Below are positions 28,475 through 34,152 of a DNA stretch of 64,000 nucleotides, one piece after another (the stretch's first letter is position 1; the number at the start of each line of letters is the position of its first letter). The notes beneath the pieces are model-generated. The model was not told the origin of the DNA. It made no database searches and worked only from the letters and a program-made list of their open reading frames with translations. This DNA is from Porticoccaceae bacterium (lineage in GTDB: Bacteria; Pseudomonadota; Gammaproteobacteria; Pseudomonadales; Porticoccaceae). The position numbers and the translations under genes were made by a program. Location of the stretch: positions 1-64,000 of the forward strand of contig JAJFKC010000020.1 in assembly GCA_021773435.1 (NCBI GenBank). The letters are read 5' to 3'.

Positions 28475-28938
28475 GATGTTTTCCTGGTTGATTGTTTGAG
28501 AGACTGGCACCCCAGTTTGAGTACTCATTATTTATATCTGGCAACAGTTTTGCCTGCGCAATAATCATAGGCATAAATAGGGAAATTACGCTGAGTTATG
28601 GTTGGTTAAAATTTGACCAAAGCTATAGAGGTTATTGTTTTAAGTGGAGGTGTTTTTAGATAAAAACAGTCTCTATACTAAGTAATTACTTGAGGTTTGT
28701 ATTTTACTAGACTGTTTTCTATTAGGTATAAATTTCTCTTTTCTTATTTTAACGGCAGTATCGCCGCTTTTCGAGCTTATATACCGACATCTTCCCACTT
28801 TTTAGATCGACTTGTCGATTCAAGATCGATTATGATCTTTTGGGTGGTGAATTGTGGTGAATTGTGGGGAATTGTGGCTGTTAGTGCCTTTTTCCTCTAA
28901 AACCAGCTTTTTCCATAAAAACAACAACGGGTTCGGCG
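28475..28938 (+). promoter_or_regulatory. Upstream regulatory region of the dcw cluster
   Basis: About 460 bp with no gene, containing the promoter for mraZ and the division genes. The distal half is AT-rich. From 28801 there are clustered GATC-containing repeats, including the inverted repeat aagatc (28822-28827) / gatctt (28834-28839), followed by the MraZ boxes. A tatgat at 28831-28836 could be a -10 box, but no -35 box lies at proper distance, so promoter placement is left open. Confidence 0.6.
28845..28879 (+). promoter_or_regulatory. MraZ operator: four TGGNN repeats at 10-bp spacing
   Basis: TGGTG (28845-28849), TGGTG (28855-28859), TGGGG (28865-28869) and TGGCT (28875-28879) are separated by three identical AATTG spacers. 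In E. coli MraZ binds TGGGN repeats with 5-bp spacers in front of mraZ and represses the cluster. The position 60 bp before mraZ, the spacing and the repeat core all fit autoregulation by the gene that follows. Confidence 0.85.
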
Positions 28939-29394
28939 GTGTTTCTAGGCAACAGAGAAATCAACATGGATGCTAAGGGGCGTATGGCGTTGCCCGCCCT
29001 GTATAGGGACGCTTTGCTTAGCGATTGCGAAGGCCAACTGGTGGTTACCGTTAGTCTTACAGATAAGTGTTTGATGATATTCCCTCAGCCTGAATGGGAT
29101 GAGCGTGCGGTTAAAATCCGTGCCCTGCCTACTCTAAACCCTCGAACCCGTGGAGTGCAACGTTTGTTGTTGGGTCACGCTCGCGAAGTTGAGATGGATG
29201 CTAGTGGTCGCATCCTGATCCCGCCAGAATTGCGCTCTTTTGCGGAACTTGAAAAGAAGTTGATGTTGGTCGGTCTGGGCCATCGCTTTGAGCTGTGGGG
29301 TGCCGACCGCTGGAATACAGATCGTGACGATTGGTTCGCAGCAGAAGCTCAGGCAACAGATATCCCTGAAGAATTAAAAACACTATCACTGTGA
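28939..29394 (+). CDS. mraZ: Transcriptional regulator MraZ
   Basis: A DNA-binding protein of the AbrB-like swapped-hairpin class that forms ring-shaped oligomers and controls the dcw promoter. The 151 residues contain two SpoVT/AbrB repeats, each with the characteristic motif: NMDAKGRMALPALYRD (about residues 9-24) and EMDASGRILIPPELR (about 84-98). The start is GTG 28939 (FLGN follows, as in MFxG family starts) with only a weak G-rich site upstream, which may keep expression low. rsmH follows within ten bases, after a stop overlapped by its ribosome site. Confidence 0.95.
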   Translation: MFLGNREINMDAKGRMALPALYRDALLSDCEGQLVVTVSLTDKCLMIFPQPEWDERAVKIRALPTLNPRTRGVQRLLLGHAREVEMDASGRILIPPELRSFAELEKKLMLVGLGHRFELWGADRWNTDRDDWFAAEAQATDIPEELKTLSL

Positions 29395-29404
29395 GGTAAG
29401 TTTG

Positions 29405-30340
29405 GTGGGCCGACAGCCTGAATACCATGCGACTGTTTTGCGAGCCGAAGCCATCGAGGCATTAGTGCAAGACCCTGACGGTTTTTATGTGGATTGCACC
29501 TTTGGTCGCGGTGGCCATAGCGCAGAAATCTTGTCAAAACTTTCGAGCAAGGGGCGTTTGCTTGCCATCGATAAAGACCCCGAGGCCAGTGCCTGGGCGG
29601 ATCAGCATTTTGCCCAGGATAAGCGGTTTACGTTTGAACGTGGGTCGTTCGAAAATTTAGTGCTGATGGTCGAAGGTCAACATCGTTCTGCCCAGGTTTC
29701 GGGTGTGCTGCTGGATCTCGGTGTGTCATCACCTCAGCTGGACAATCCTGCCCGGGGCTTTAGTTTTTTGCGTGATGGCCGGCTGGATATGAGACTGGAT
29801 CCCCAGTGTGGGCAAAGTGCAGCGCAATGGCTCGCTGTAGCCTCGACGGATGACCTAACGCGGGTGCTCAGAGATTACGGTGAAGAAAAGCATGCCAGAC
29901 GCATGGCGCGAGCGTTGGTAGCGGCGCGGGATGAATCGGCTATTACGACCACCAGTCAACTGGCCGACATTATTGCCGCCGCAAATCCTTCCTGGGAGAA
30001 ACACAAGCATCCGGCAACTCGTGCTTTTCAGGCCATCAGAATTTTTATCAATCGGGAGCTGGAAGTCTTGCAGCAGCTTCTTGGCAGTGTCCTGGACGTG
30101 CTCGCAGTGGGCGGACGATTGGTGGTGATTAGTTTCCATTCTTTGGAAGACCGCATTGTTAAGCGATATATTCGTGGCCACGAGAGGCCGATGCTACCCA
30201 AAGGTTTACCTCTGCGAGACAGCGAGATAACTCGGCGTATGCAAGCGGTGGGTAAAGCCACCAGGGCCAGCGGGCAGGAAGTGGCGGAGAATCCCCGCGC
30301 CCGTAGCGCCGTTATGCGTGTTGCGGAGAAATTGGCATGA
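29405..30340 (+). CDS. rsmH: 16S rRNA (cytosine(1402)-N4)-methyltransferase RsmH
   Basis: RsmH (MraW) methylates N4 of C1402 in 16S rRNA, the same nucleotide whose ribose is modified by RsmI encoded 6 kb upstream. Motifs: HATVLRAEAIEAL, DCTFGRGGHSAEIL (SAM loop), LAIDKDPEA, GVLLDLGVSSPQLDNPARGFSF, RAFQAIRIFINREL and VISFHSLEDRIVK. Adjacent TTG 29402 and GTG 29405 can both serve as start; GTG sits eight bases after GAGG and is preferred. About 311 residues, full length. Confidence 0.96.
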   Translation: MGRQPEYHATVLRAEAIEALVQDPDGFYVDCTFGRGGHSAEILSKLSSKGRLLAIDKDPEASAWADQHFAQDKRFTFERGSFENLVLMVEGQHRSAQVSGVLLDLGVSSPQLDNPARGFSFLRDGRLDMRLDPQCGQSAAQWLAVASTDDLTRVLRDYGEEKHARRMARALVAARDESAITTTSQLADIIAAANPSWEKHKHPATRAFQAIRIFINRELEVLQQLLGSVLDVLAVGGRLVVISFHSLEDRIVKRYIRGHERPMLPKGLPLRDSEITRRMQAVGKATRASGQEVAENPRARSAVMRVAEKLA

Positions 30341-30359
30341 CTAAACACAGGGTGTCCAG

Positions 30360-30635
30360 GTGTCTGGTTTGAGCGGCGGCAAAGGCATTTTTTTGCTGTG
30401 GGCACTTATGTTGTTTAGCGGCTTATGTGTTGTTTTCGTCAGTCATCAGTGTCGTCTGTTGTATAGCGAATTGGCCCTGTTAGAGCAGCATAAAAACCGT
30501 CTTGAGGTCGAATGGGGACAATATTTGCTGGAGGAAAGCTCTCTGGCATCGTTGCATCGGGTTGAGACAGTTAGTCAGCGAAAACTGGGTATGCGAGCGC
30601 CGCTGCTGGATCAAATAGTGGTGGTGAGACCTTGA
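30360..30635 (+). CDS. ftsL: Cell division protein FtsL
   Basis: A small bitopic inner-membrane protein of the FtsQLB complex that activates FtsWI at the septum. The 91 residues have a short cytoplasmic end, one membrane helix (about residues 10-29, IFLLWALMLFSGLCVVFV) and a periplasmic coiled coil rich in heptads (LYSELALLEQHKNRLEVEW), ending in the conserved LGMRAP motif. The start is GTG 30360. The stop codon overlaps the TTG start of ftsI. Confidence 0.92.
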   Translation: MSGLSGGKGIFLLWALMLFSGLCVVFVSHQCRLLYSELALLEQHKNRLEVEWGQYLLEESSLASLHRVETVSQRKLGMRAPLLDQIVVVRP

Positions 30636-32530
30636 AGCGTAGCGATACAAAAACATCGAGTTGGCTGATTGGACGCAAGCGCAGACGGCCTAGTGCGCGT
30701 CAGATTGGCATGCCTCGATGGCGTTATCTGACACTAGTTTTTATCCTCACCCTGTTGCCGCTGGCTGCATTTTGGCAGATAGCGGGTTTGCAGGTTATGC
30801 CCGACGCCAAGTATGGCTTCAGGTTTTTGCAGGGTCAGGGCGATGCTCGGATGATTCGAGAAGATGAAATCCCTGGTTATCGTGGCGTTATCACCGATCG
30901 ACGTGGCGAGCCCCTGGCGGTGAGCACCCCTGTGGTGTCTGTCTATGCCGACCCACAAATTCTTGATCTGGGTGAAGACAAGCTGGCGGTGTTGGCGAAA
31001 AAATTGGGGGAGAAACCCCAGGCCCTTGCGCGACGTCTCGCTGTCTATGCCAATAAAGAATTTATGTACTTGTCTCGTCGCATTACGCCGGACGACGCTG
31101 AGGCGATTTTGTCCCTCGGTATTGCAGGCATATTTAAAAAGGTTGAATACAAACGCTATTACCCCGCAGGGGAAGTGACCGCTCAGCTGGTCGGTTTTAC
31201 CGATATTGATGACGCCGGTCAGGAAGGTATGGAGCTAGCCTTTGATGAATTACTGGCTGGCCGACCCGGAGTCAGGCAGGTGCTAAAGGATCGCAAGCGC
31301 CGAGTGATCAAGAATCTGCAACTACTCAGAAGTGAAAGGCCCGGCAAGAACCTGGCGTTGAGCATTGATTTGCGACTCCAGTACGCGGCCTACAGAGAGC
31401 TAAAGGCTGCGATGACGCAGTTTCGAGCGGCGTCTGGCTCAGTGGTGATACTTGATGTGCAGACCGGCGAAGTGCTGGCCATGGTCAATCAGCCCGCCTT
31501 TAACCCTAACAACCGCAGCCGCCTCAACACAAACGCCATGCGTAATCGTGCAGTGACTGACTTGATTGAGCCGGGTTCGGTGATGAAGCCATTAACCATG
31601 ATCGCAGCCCTTGAGAGCGGAAGATTTCGCCCCGAGACGGTGATAGATACCAGCCCCGGACACTTCCGTGTTGGCCGCAAAACTTTCGTCGATCATCGAA
31701 ACTATGGGGCGTTGGATCTGGCTGGCATCCTCAAAAAATCCAGTCAGGTGGGTACTACAAAAATTGCTATGGATCTGGAGCCAGAGGCGGTACGCGGAGT
31801 GTTTGAACGGGTCGGTTTGGGCCAAAGCCCCGGCACGGGTTTCCCCGGTGAGGCCTCCGGTGTGTTACCTAACAAGCAGCGCTGGCGACCGGTTGAGCGA
31901 GCGACCATGGCCTTTGGCTATGGCATCGCCGTGACACCTTTGCAGTTGGCCCACGCCTACGCTGTGCTGGCTAACAATGGTGTTAAAAAGGCAGTGTCTT
32001 TGCTGAGGTTGCCAGACACTAGCCATGCTGCATTACCCACAGAGGATAAAGTTATCAGTGCCGATGTGGCGGCGGATGTCCGTGAAATGATGAAAGCTGT
32101 GATTGACGAAGGCGGTACTGGCACGCGAGCAGCCATTGCCGGTTACGCGGTCGCCGGCAAAACAGGAACCAGCCACAAAGTCGGCGCGGGCGGTTATCAG
32201 GATGATCGATACGTCTCATTATTTGCCGGTATGGTGCCTGCCGATGCGCCGCGTTTGGTGACGGTGGTGGTGATTGATGATCCCCGTAGCCAAGAGTATT
32301 ACGGCGGTCTGGTTGCCGCGCCGGTGTTTTCAAAGGTGACTGCCGAGGCGCTGCGATTTTTGAATATTGCACCGACGCAAACGCCGGAGGCGGCATTAGC
32401 TGTGGGAACGCAAATGGGTGTTCTAAAAAACGGGGCACTGTCAGGTCAGGTGGCACCCAGTCAAACCCTTGCTAGCCAGAAGGTAAGTCGTCGACCAGAA
32501 CCTGCCCAGGTTCGGGGTGGCGCAACGTGA
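30632..32530 (+). CDS. ftsI: Peptidoglycan D,D-transpeptidase FtsI (PBP3)
   Basis: The septum-specific class B penicillin-binding protein; it crosslinks lipid II polymer made by FtsW. 632 residues: cytoplasmic tail, membrane helix about 31-52, pedestal domain (GYRGVITDRRGEPLAVS), then transpeptidase. Catalytic S316-x-x-K319 (EPGSVMKP) and KTGT (AVAGKTGTSHK) are present. The second motif, S370-S371-Q372 (KKSSQVGTTK), has glutamine where E. coli PBP3 has asparagine (SSN); the codon is cag at 31745-31747. The start is TTG at 30632, inside the last codons of ftsL. Overlaps murE by one base. Confidence 0.95.
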   Translation: MKRSDTKTSSWLIGRKRRRPSARQIGMPRWRYLTLVFILTLLPLAAFWQIAGLQVMPDAKYGFRFLQGQGDARMIREDEIPGYRGVITDRRGEPLAVSTPVVSVYADPQILDLGEDKLAVLAKKLGEKPQALARRLAVYANKEFMYLSRRITPDDAEAILSLGIAGIFKKVEYKRYYPAGEVTAQLVGFTDIDDAGQEGMELAFDELLAGRPGVRQVLKDRKRRVIKNLQLLRSERPGKNLALSIDLRLQYAAYRELKAAMTQFRAASGSVVILDVQTGEVLAMVNQPAFNPNNRSRLNTNAMRNRAVTDLIEPGSVMKPLTMIAALESGRFRPETVIDTSPGHFRVGRKTFVDHRNYGALDLAGILKKSSQVGTTKIAMDLEPEAVRGVFERVGLGQSPGTGFPGEASGVLPNKQRWRPVERATMAFGYGIAVTPLQLAHAYAVLANNGVKKAVSLLRLPDTSHAALPTEDKVISADVAADVREMMKAVIDEGGTGTRAAIAGYAVAGKTGTSHKVGAGGYQDDRYVSLFAGMVPADAPRLVTVVVIDDPRSQEYYGGLVAAPVFSKVTAEALRFLNIAPTQTPEAALAVGTQMGVLKNGALSGQVAPSQTLASQKVSRRPEPAQVRGGAT

Positions 32531-34152
32531 TGGCGGCTCAGAACACTGTGGGCAATCTAACCCTGGGCAATTTGCTACCACGAGAAGCGCTTGCTAAATC
32601 TATATCAAACCTTGAAATTAGTGGTTTACAGCTGGATAGCCGCAAAATACAGGTTGGCGATTTGTTTATTGCCGTACCGGGTTCGGACCCAGCCAAGCCC
32701 AGTGATGGACGCCGTTTTATTAGTGAGGCTGTGCAGGCCGGGGCCAGTGCAGTATTAGCAGAAGCTGTGGATTGGCCAAACGATGTCGATGTCGAGATTT
32801 CGACAGATAACCCAGCATCTATAGATATAGACGGCTCAACTCCTGCCGTCCTGATTGCAGATTTGGCCAAGCAGATCAGTGCCATAGCTGGTTGTTTTTA
32901 CGGGCACCCCAGTGATTATCTCAATGTGATTGGTATCACTGGCTCCAACGGCAAGACCACCTGCGCCCATTTGCTTGCGCAACTATTTAACCGTCTTGAA
33001 ACCAGTGCTGCCACGATCGGTACGCTTGGTTTTGGCGCGCCGAAGTCTGGAGCAGGCGATGATCCGGCGCGAAATACGTTAACGGGCACGGGCCTGACCA
33101 CACCAGATGCGGTGTCATGCCAGAAAATTCTCGCTGATATGTTGAGCGATAAAGTCGATACGGTGGCGATGGAAGTATCGTCACACAGCCTAGATCAGGG
33201 TCGTGTCAGTGATATTCGGATGCGCGGTGCAGTATTTACTAATTTCAGCCGTGATCATCTCGACTATCACGCGTCGATGGCAGACTACCTTGATGCTAAG
33301 CTAAAGCTGTTTTCTGCACGAGGTCTTGAATTTGCCGTCATCAATATTGATGATCCGGCGGGTGTTTCGCTGGCCGAATCACTCCATGCTGATATCCGCT
33401 GCTACACCTATTCAATAACGGATCATGATGCCTCGGTTTATGCCGAAAATATTCGCCTTTCAGCCCAGGGTCTAGAAGCGGATGTCTTGACGTTCTGGGG
33501 GCGAGGGCGCCTGAAGAGCCGACTTATCGGCGAATTTAATCTGAGCAACATGCTCGCGGTGATCACGGTCGCCTGTGCCAGCGGTTTAAAACTGGATGCG
33601 GTGCTGGCTGCTGTCGAAGCCCTGGCGCCGGTGCCAGGCCGACTGGAAGTTATCCGTCATCGTGTCGGCCCGATGGTCGTCATCGATTACGCCCACACAC
33701 CGGACGCTCTGGCAAAAGCCCTGACCGCGCTGCGCTTTGCAGATAATTCCTCAGCACGTAGTAAATCGGCACATGGTAAATCGCCCAGTGGCAAATTGTG
33801 GTGCGTGTTTGGTTGTGGTGGTGATAGAGATAAAGGTAAGCGTCCAGAAATGGCAGCAGCGGCTGAACAGTTGGCCGATGAAGTAGTGGTAACCAGCGAC
33901 AACCCCCGCAATGAAGCGCCTGCCGCGATTATCGATGACATCCTGTCCGGTACGGACCAAGCCTTTCATCGCTATGAAGACCGGGCTAAAGCGATTCGCT
34001 TTGCCATCGATAATGCAGACCCTGCCGATACCGTATTAATAGCCGGTAAGGGGCACGAAGATTATCAAATCACTGGTGAAAACCGGTTGCCCTTTAGCGA
34101 TGCAGCAGAAGCCAGATTAGCATTACAGCGCTGGGGTGATGCGCGTGAATAG
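32530..34152 (+). CDS. murE: UDP-N-acetylmuramoyl-L-alanyl-D-glutamate--2,6-diaminopimelate ligase MurE
   Basis: This cytoplasmic Mur ligase adds the third stem residue. LDSRKIQVGDLFIAVPG opens the N-terminal domain, ITGSNGKTTCAHLLA is the ATP P-loop, and the C-terminal domain carries DNPRNEAP. The DNPR form is the signature for meso-diaminopimelate, so the wall is of the usual Gram-negative type. The ATG overlaps the ftsI TGA (TGATG). A GTG one codon earlier is possible. About 540 residues, slightly longer than E. coli because of small loops at 755-830 in the gene. Confidence 0.95.
   Translation: MAAQNTVGNLTLGNLLPREALAKSISNLEISGLQLDSRKIQVGDLFIAVPGSDPAKPSDGRRFISEAVQAGASAVLAEAVDWPNDVDVEISTDNPASIDIDGSTPAVLIADLAKQISAIAGCFYGHPSDYLNVIGITGSNGKTTCAHLLAQLFNRLETSAATIGTLGFGAPKSGAGDDPARNTLTGTGLTTPDAVSCQKILADMLSDKVDTVAMEVSSHSLDQGRVSDIRMRGAVFTNFSRDHLDYHASMADYLDAKLKLFSARGLEFAVINIDDPAGVSLAESLHADIRCYTYSITDHDASVYAENIRLSAQGLEADVLTFWGRGRLKSRLIGEFNLSNMLAVITVACASGLKLDAVLAAVEALAPVPGRLEVIRHRVGPMVVIDYAHTPDALAKALTALRFADNSSARSKSAHGKSPSGKLWCVFGCGGDRDKGKRPEMAAAAEQLADEVVVTSDNPRNEAPAAIIDDILSGTDQAFHRYEDRAKAIRFAIDNADPADTVLIAGKGHEDYQITGENRLPFSDAAEARLALQRWGDARE

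Follow-up and report, generated by a model that had tools for sequence, protein, structure and literature searches.

The window (the whole stretch of DNA analysed, 64 kb) carries on its forward strand an mraZ gene with a GTG start (28939..29394), which was assigned through PF02381, TIGR00242, sequence alignment, and the predicted fold. The product scored 104.7 bits against PF02381 (cut-off 23) and 136.9 bits against TIGR00242 (cut-off 98.35); its matches to five narrower NCBIfam MraZ models stayed below their cut-offs. The alignment revealed the two repeats of MraZ, with a DxxxR motif in each half (DAKGR and DASGR). The monomer model had a pLDDT of 85.8, and its comparison with mycoplasma MraZ structures yielded Z values of 18.0–19.4 and rmsd values of 2.3–3.0 over 137–138 residues; the next entry had a Z value of 4.5. 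According to the model, the product is predicted to adopt the MraZ fold. At 28945–28947, we noted that the protein starts with MFLG, and that the five aligned relatives having that residue read MFRG. Behind mraZ, the forward strand contains rsmH, ftsL, a penicillin-binding transpeptidase gene at the ftsI position, and a Mur ligase gene at the murE position (29402..34152). These were assigned with Pfam and, for RsmH, with TIGR00006, the names ftsI and murE being based on domains and gene order. The mraZ, rsmH, ftsL, transpeptidase, and Mur ligase genes are the head of the dcw cluster.

An array of direct repeats precedes mraZ. Positions 28845–28879 read TGGTG-AATTG-TGGTG-AATTG-TGGGG-AATTG-TGGCT, with TGG starting at 28845, 28855, 28865, and 28875. 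Because a G stands before every TGG, GTGG is the better core, and the forward-strand MraZ boxes 1–4 were placed at 28844..28847, 28854..28857, 28864..28867, and 28874..28877. The unit GTGGTGAATT (28844–28853) recurs exactly at 28854–28863. The preliminary description had claimed four TGG repeats at an exact 10-bp period, separated by identical AATTG spacers. The sequence reads as claimed, all three spacers included, and a repeat search of the window returned the same 10-bp direct repeat. A degenerate in-phase site, GTGC, follows on the forward strand at 28884..28887. As a fifth site it is probably marginal, the fifth box being weakly conserved in the class profile. Four TGG at the 10-bp period were found once in the 64-kb window, as compared with 0.01 on average over 100 dinucleotide-shuffled versions, one of which had such a run. 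In the 3.4-Mb genome the pattern was present twice, with the second copy located within a 498-aa ORF, and a reversed control pattern gave one match.

A consensus scan predicted a sigma-70 promoter on the forward strand at 28807..28836 (TCGACT, 18 bp, TATGAT; 9/12 matches). The scan yielded 3 sites in the region versus a mean of 0.8 in shuffles, which is weak on its own. Both hexamers and their 18-bp spacing are also present in a relative of the same genus, G003. The predicted −10 hexamer ends at 28836 and box 1 starts 7 nt behind it. From the usual distance between the −10 and the start, we take the mraZ start site to be at about 28842–28844, as a prediction. The end of the array is 61 bp from the GTG start of mraZ. 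As expected of an MraZ operator, the array is flanked by the promoter (a prediction) on one side and by mraZ, the first gene of the dcw cluster, on the other, and it consists of direct repeats with a TGG/GTG core and a 10-bp period.

Two further repeats were observed around the promoter. The inverted repeat AAGATC-GATTAT-GATCTT (28822–28839) contains two GATC sites and spans the predicted −10; it is absent from G003 and was taken as chance. The repeat search also returned a 16-nt repeat, TTTTTAGATAAAAACA (28653–28668) and TTTTTCCATAAAAACA (28908–28923), whose copies are 255 bp apart and flank the promoter. It could be a chance occurrence in A+T-rich DNA.

The regions upstream of mraZ were compared in 102 genomes of the same family and in 118 others (E. 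coli K-12 and 117 genomes sampled from the order and class). For the family, 112 genomes were searched, 104 matched, and 102 regions were used; G004 (contig beginning in the gene) and G065 (partial match) were dropped, and second copies in G023, G102, and G001 were not counted. The order gave 52 matches among 56 genomes searched and 48 new regions, G000 and G082 having been counted already and G142 (partial match) and G164 being left out. For the class, 94 genomes were searched, 82 matched, and 69 new regions were used; G000 and G146 had been counted already, and the 11 weakest matches were left out. At the phylum level, 80 genomes were searched, 48 matched, and 24 regions were examined, none of which was added to the 118 regions or to the 123 representatives. 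For the latter set, each genus of the family and each family outside it supplied one genome, and E. coli was added.

Within the family (n = 102, window included), the strict TGG runs at the 10-bp period comprised two boxes in 12 regions, three in 78, and four in 12. The order, class, and E. coli regions (n = 118) had one box in 4, two in 13, three in 56, four in 40, five in 4, and six in 1. Three was the commonest count in both sets. For the 14 phylum regions outside the class, the counts were two boxes in 2, three in 8, and four in 4. At least three TGG stood in phase in 90/102 and 101/118 regions, respectively; the TGG cores are conserved in relatives, a point on which the preliminary description had made its reading depend. 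Runs of three were scarce in the controls: the reverse strands contained them in 0/102 family regions and 1/118 of the others, and five shuffles per region gave 2/510 and 1/590. A run of four appeared in none of the shuffled upstream regions (0/510 for the family; 0/590 for the order, class, and E. coli), and no run longer than three was present in the reverse strands and shuffles. Among the 123 representatives, none of the other periods from 7 to 13 gave more than one run of three. As a separate observation, contig C242 of G023 (L114) harbors a second, divergent MraZ gene with its own three-box array (TGGTAAGAAG TGGTAAGAAG TGG) 89 bp upstream. This gene may be foreign, since this genome of the same family has an estimated contamination of 5%.

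At least four strict TGG were found in 45/118 regions of the order, class, and E. coli and in 12/102 of the family (57/220 overall), which does not bear out the earlier suggestion that the fourth box is special. The idea of the fourth box as an innovation was rejected on the survey counts and on the reports of four boxes for Burkholderia cenocepacia and in the title of PDB entry 9sz7. Judged by sequence, the four strict boxes of the window are within the ordinary range. The preliminary description also raised the possibility that an extra box alters how tightly repression works. The related statement that the window has one box more than E. coli holds under the strict TGG rule; E. coli K-12 has three GTGG and then an in-phase GGGG, whereas all four boxes in the window are GTGG.

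The number of boxes varies with the rule by which a box is defined. Under the rule GTG[GT], the 123 representatives had one box in 3 cases, two in 18, three in 43, four in 55, and five in 4. The same rule gave two boxes in 60, three in 27, and four in 15 of the 102 family regions; runs of two prevail there because many boxes in the family read ATGG. Under [AGT]TG[GT], two boxes were found in 5 representatives, three in 33, four in 64, five in 19, and six in 2, and the family had two in 2, three in 35, and four in 65. Among the representatives, both looser rules thus put the maximum at four. Runs of three under the second rule were detected in 2/123 reverse strands and 7/615 shuffles.

A gapless profile of the 123 representatives, which was seeded with a four-box consensus and could favor that register (the run counts are independent of it), displayed four conserved boxes: an AGTGT overlapping the −10 (TATAGTGT) and three GTGG, with a weak fifth. 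A text test on the 119 representatives with at least two boxes found a degenerate box on a TATA-like −10 in 62, the first TGG at this place in 11, and neither in 46, to which kind the window belongs. The window shares with the gammaproteobacterial consensus the GTGG core, the 10-bp period, and the place directly behind the promoter. The consensus differs in having a first box, GTGT, fused to the −10; this box is missing from the window, whose four GTGG all follow the −10. G003 lacks it as well: the window reads TATGATCTT and G003 TATGATTCG, instead of TATAGTGTC.

We also considered whether the total number of boxes is held at four by compensation. In the family, four strict TGG were present in 0/52 regions whose first TGG is preceded at 10 bp by TGT and in 12/42 having no TG at that position (Fisher p = 2e-5); regions with another TG at this position had them in 0/8. 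The genomes concerned are, however, closely related. Among the 123 representatives, at least four TGG were found in 18/62 with the upstream TGT, 24/55 without it, and 2/6 with another TG (p = 0.12 for 18/62 vs. 24/55). Using a definition anchored at the −10 for the 119 representatives, at least four boxes were counted in 21/62 with the degenerate −10 box, in 9/11 with the first TGG on the −10, and in 14/46 with neither. The 9/11 fit a total of four, but the 14/46 show no compensation. Compensation is therefore visible within the family, not clearly so among the representatives, and is not established.

Alignment with G003 revealed one additional 10-bp unit in the array of the window. Units 1 and 2 of the window are each identical to unit 1 of G003 (10/10), and unit 3 matches units 1 and 2 of G003 at 9/10 positions. 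Based on this one alignable and fairly distant relative, whose MraZ is 63% identical, tandem duplication of a single 10-bp unit in the lineage of the window is the most likely origin of the fourth strict TGG. As three strict boxes prevail in the family (78/102), gain by duplication is the simpler reading. The comparison is not entirely clean: the distance from the −10 to box 1 is 7 nt in the window but 8 nt in G003, and the latter has an off-phase GTGG 11 bp past its third box. Three identical 5-nt spacers are rare, being observed in 2/57 genomes with at least four boxes; three spacers drawn at random from the pool would be alike with a probability of about 0.01. The matching spacers are accounted for by the duplication together with the commonness of AATTG. 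The near-identity of the units is a small lineage-specific feature.

The composition of the spacers was analyzed across the 119 representatives. AATTG made up 18 of the 276 spacers, second to AAAAG (58). The four bases before the box contained 60 TpA steps versus 139 expected and 113 A-tract tetramers versus 60 expected when the columns were shuffled, where each promoter contributes several spacers that are not independent. Restricting the count to the first spacer (n = 119) gave 25 TpA steps versus 50 expected. Since TpA may be rare generally, the flanks of the same promoters were used as a comparison. A-tracts constituted 113/165 of the all-A/T tetramers in the arrays and 820/1734 in the flanks (Fisher p = 2e-7). 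After the removal of AAAA and TTTT, the difference was 37/89 versus 366/1280 (p = 0.011), and AATT alone gave 24/89 versus 90/1280 (p = 4e-8). A-tract-like spacers across the class may fit DNA bending along the MraZ ring or a readout of the narrow minor groove. An A-run is already within the mollicute MraZ motif given in PMC8475190, and among the best 10 of 196 matches of our literature search no paper named MraZ together with A-tracts.

The array resembles sites described in other bacteria. In B. cenocepacia, MraZ retarded a 250-bp fragment in a gel shift, and reading of this fragment then revealed four repeats of 7 nt, spaced by 3 nt, downstream of the −10 (PMC7761207). These repeats share with the window the 10-bp period, the GTG core, the number of four, and a position past the −10 that overlaps the start. 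The difference is that they were located by reading the bound fragment, with no footprint, whereas in the window the start is predicted and the units are nearly identical to each other. The region upstream of mraZ in E. coli K-12 is likewise similar, with GTGG at a 10-bp period from 7 nt behind an apparent −10 (TAAACT). The mollicute MraZ site consists of direct repeats of AAAGTG[T/G], according to PMC8475190 (see also PMC5138195). It and the Mycoplasma genitalium entries PDB 9sz7 and 9r4j have the GTG core in common with the window, and the title of 9sz7 names MraZ "in complex with 4 box promoter"; no publication for this entry was among the results listed in our literature searches. The A-run before the mollicute GTG is also the commonest spacer of the class, whereas the window has AATT there, and the MraZ proteins of the window and of mycoplasmas are 24–28% identical. 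A search of PMC5089854 found no mention of repeats or boxes.

With these results in hand, we consider that the array is very probably an autoregulatory dcw operator, at which MraZ binds the four GTGG boxes and represses mraZ, rsmH, ftsL, and the genes behind them. The gene context, the place behind the predicted −10, the conserved TGG cores, and the published gel shift with equivalent repeats all support the proposal of the preliminary description that the array is the operator of the MraZ encoded downstream. MraZ produced from the first gene would bind the four boxes, one per helical turn, via adjacent subunits of its ring, an arrangement that appears to fit the title of PDB 9sz7. Because the array starts 7 nt past the predicted −10, the start site and roughly the first 35 transcribed bases should lie within it. 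The bound MraZ should block initiation, leading to a negative feedback on mraZ, rsmH, ftsL, and the genes behind. The genes at 29402..34152 are presumably governed by the four-box operator. The search of the genome showed no sign of further sites that would indicate a wider MraZ regulon: the three-box GTGK pattern, at control level, had 5 matches (2 in the mraZ operator) versus 7 for the reversed control. The other matches were one within an ORF, one at 1501–1524 of L253 in a stretch without a 100-aa ORF, and one on L251.

A more elaborate history would be that the operator slid one turn downstream. The −10 box that is frequent in the class would have been lost and a 10-bp unit duplicated behind, so that four boxes were kept for the MraZ ring and repression moved from the −10 to the start and early transcribed region. 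The AATT spacers would then act as A-tracts in phase with the helix, bending the DNA along the ring, and spacer sequence as well as box number would be under selection. We regard this scenario as conceivable, but rather doubtful.

The sign of the regulation may vary, because PMC7761207 cites work that describes mycoplasma MraZ as an activator. That the MraZ-bound operator activates the cluster instead of repressing it is nevertheless very unlikely here: the array is on and behind the predicted start, as it is in E. coli and B. cenocepacia (PMC7761207), which suits blocking, and mraW, MG_223, and ftsZ go up when M. genitalium loses mraZ (PMC8475190).

Control of expression by a G-quadruplex formed from G-runs in the promoter or leader would make MraZ binding unneeded. 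PMC11796246 reports such a structure for the mraZ promoter of S. aureus and claims conserved G-quadruplex motifs for the mraZ promoters of several bacteria. The E. coli stretch does fit the G3+ pattern, and the loose G2+ pattern fits 41/107 arrays with at least three boxes. However, G3+ fits just 5 of these 107, and the stretch in the window, which does not have four G-runs of at least 3, fits neither G3+ nor G2+ (loops 1–7). What is conserved is GTG in a 10-bp phase, including a first box GTGT without GG, and a G-quadruplex requires no such phase. The conservation in helical phase points to a protein and makes the G-quadruplex most improbable as the controlling element. The motifs claimed in PMC11796246 may partly be the phased GTGG boxes of the MraZ operator. 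Hardly credible, finally, is a functionless tandem duplication that happens to lie in the mraZ leader. Slippage would give identical units, and units 1 and 2 are indeed identical, but in-phase TGG runs precede mraZ across the order and class and in G003, only 0.01 four-TGG runs are expected per window, and a duplication accounts for the added unit and not for the existence of the array.

Across the representatives, arrays with four MraZ boxes are more frequent than those with any other number once the degenerate −10 box is counted. The three strict boxes of E. coli are no yardstick, and this corrects a likely misreading. The survey also yields a testable anatomy, with GTGT on the −10, three GTGG, and A-tract-like spacers. 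In a series of arrays that differ in box number, the near-identical repeat of the window would supply a natural variant with an extra unit.
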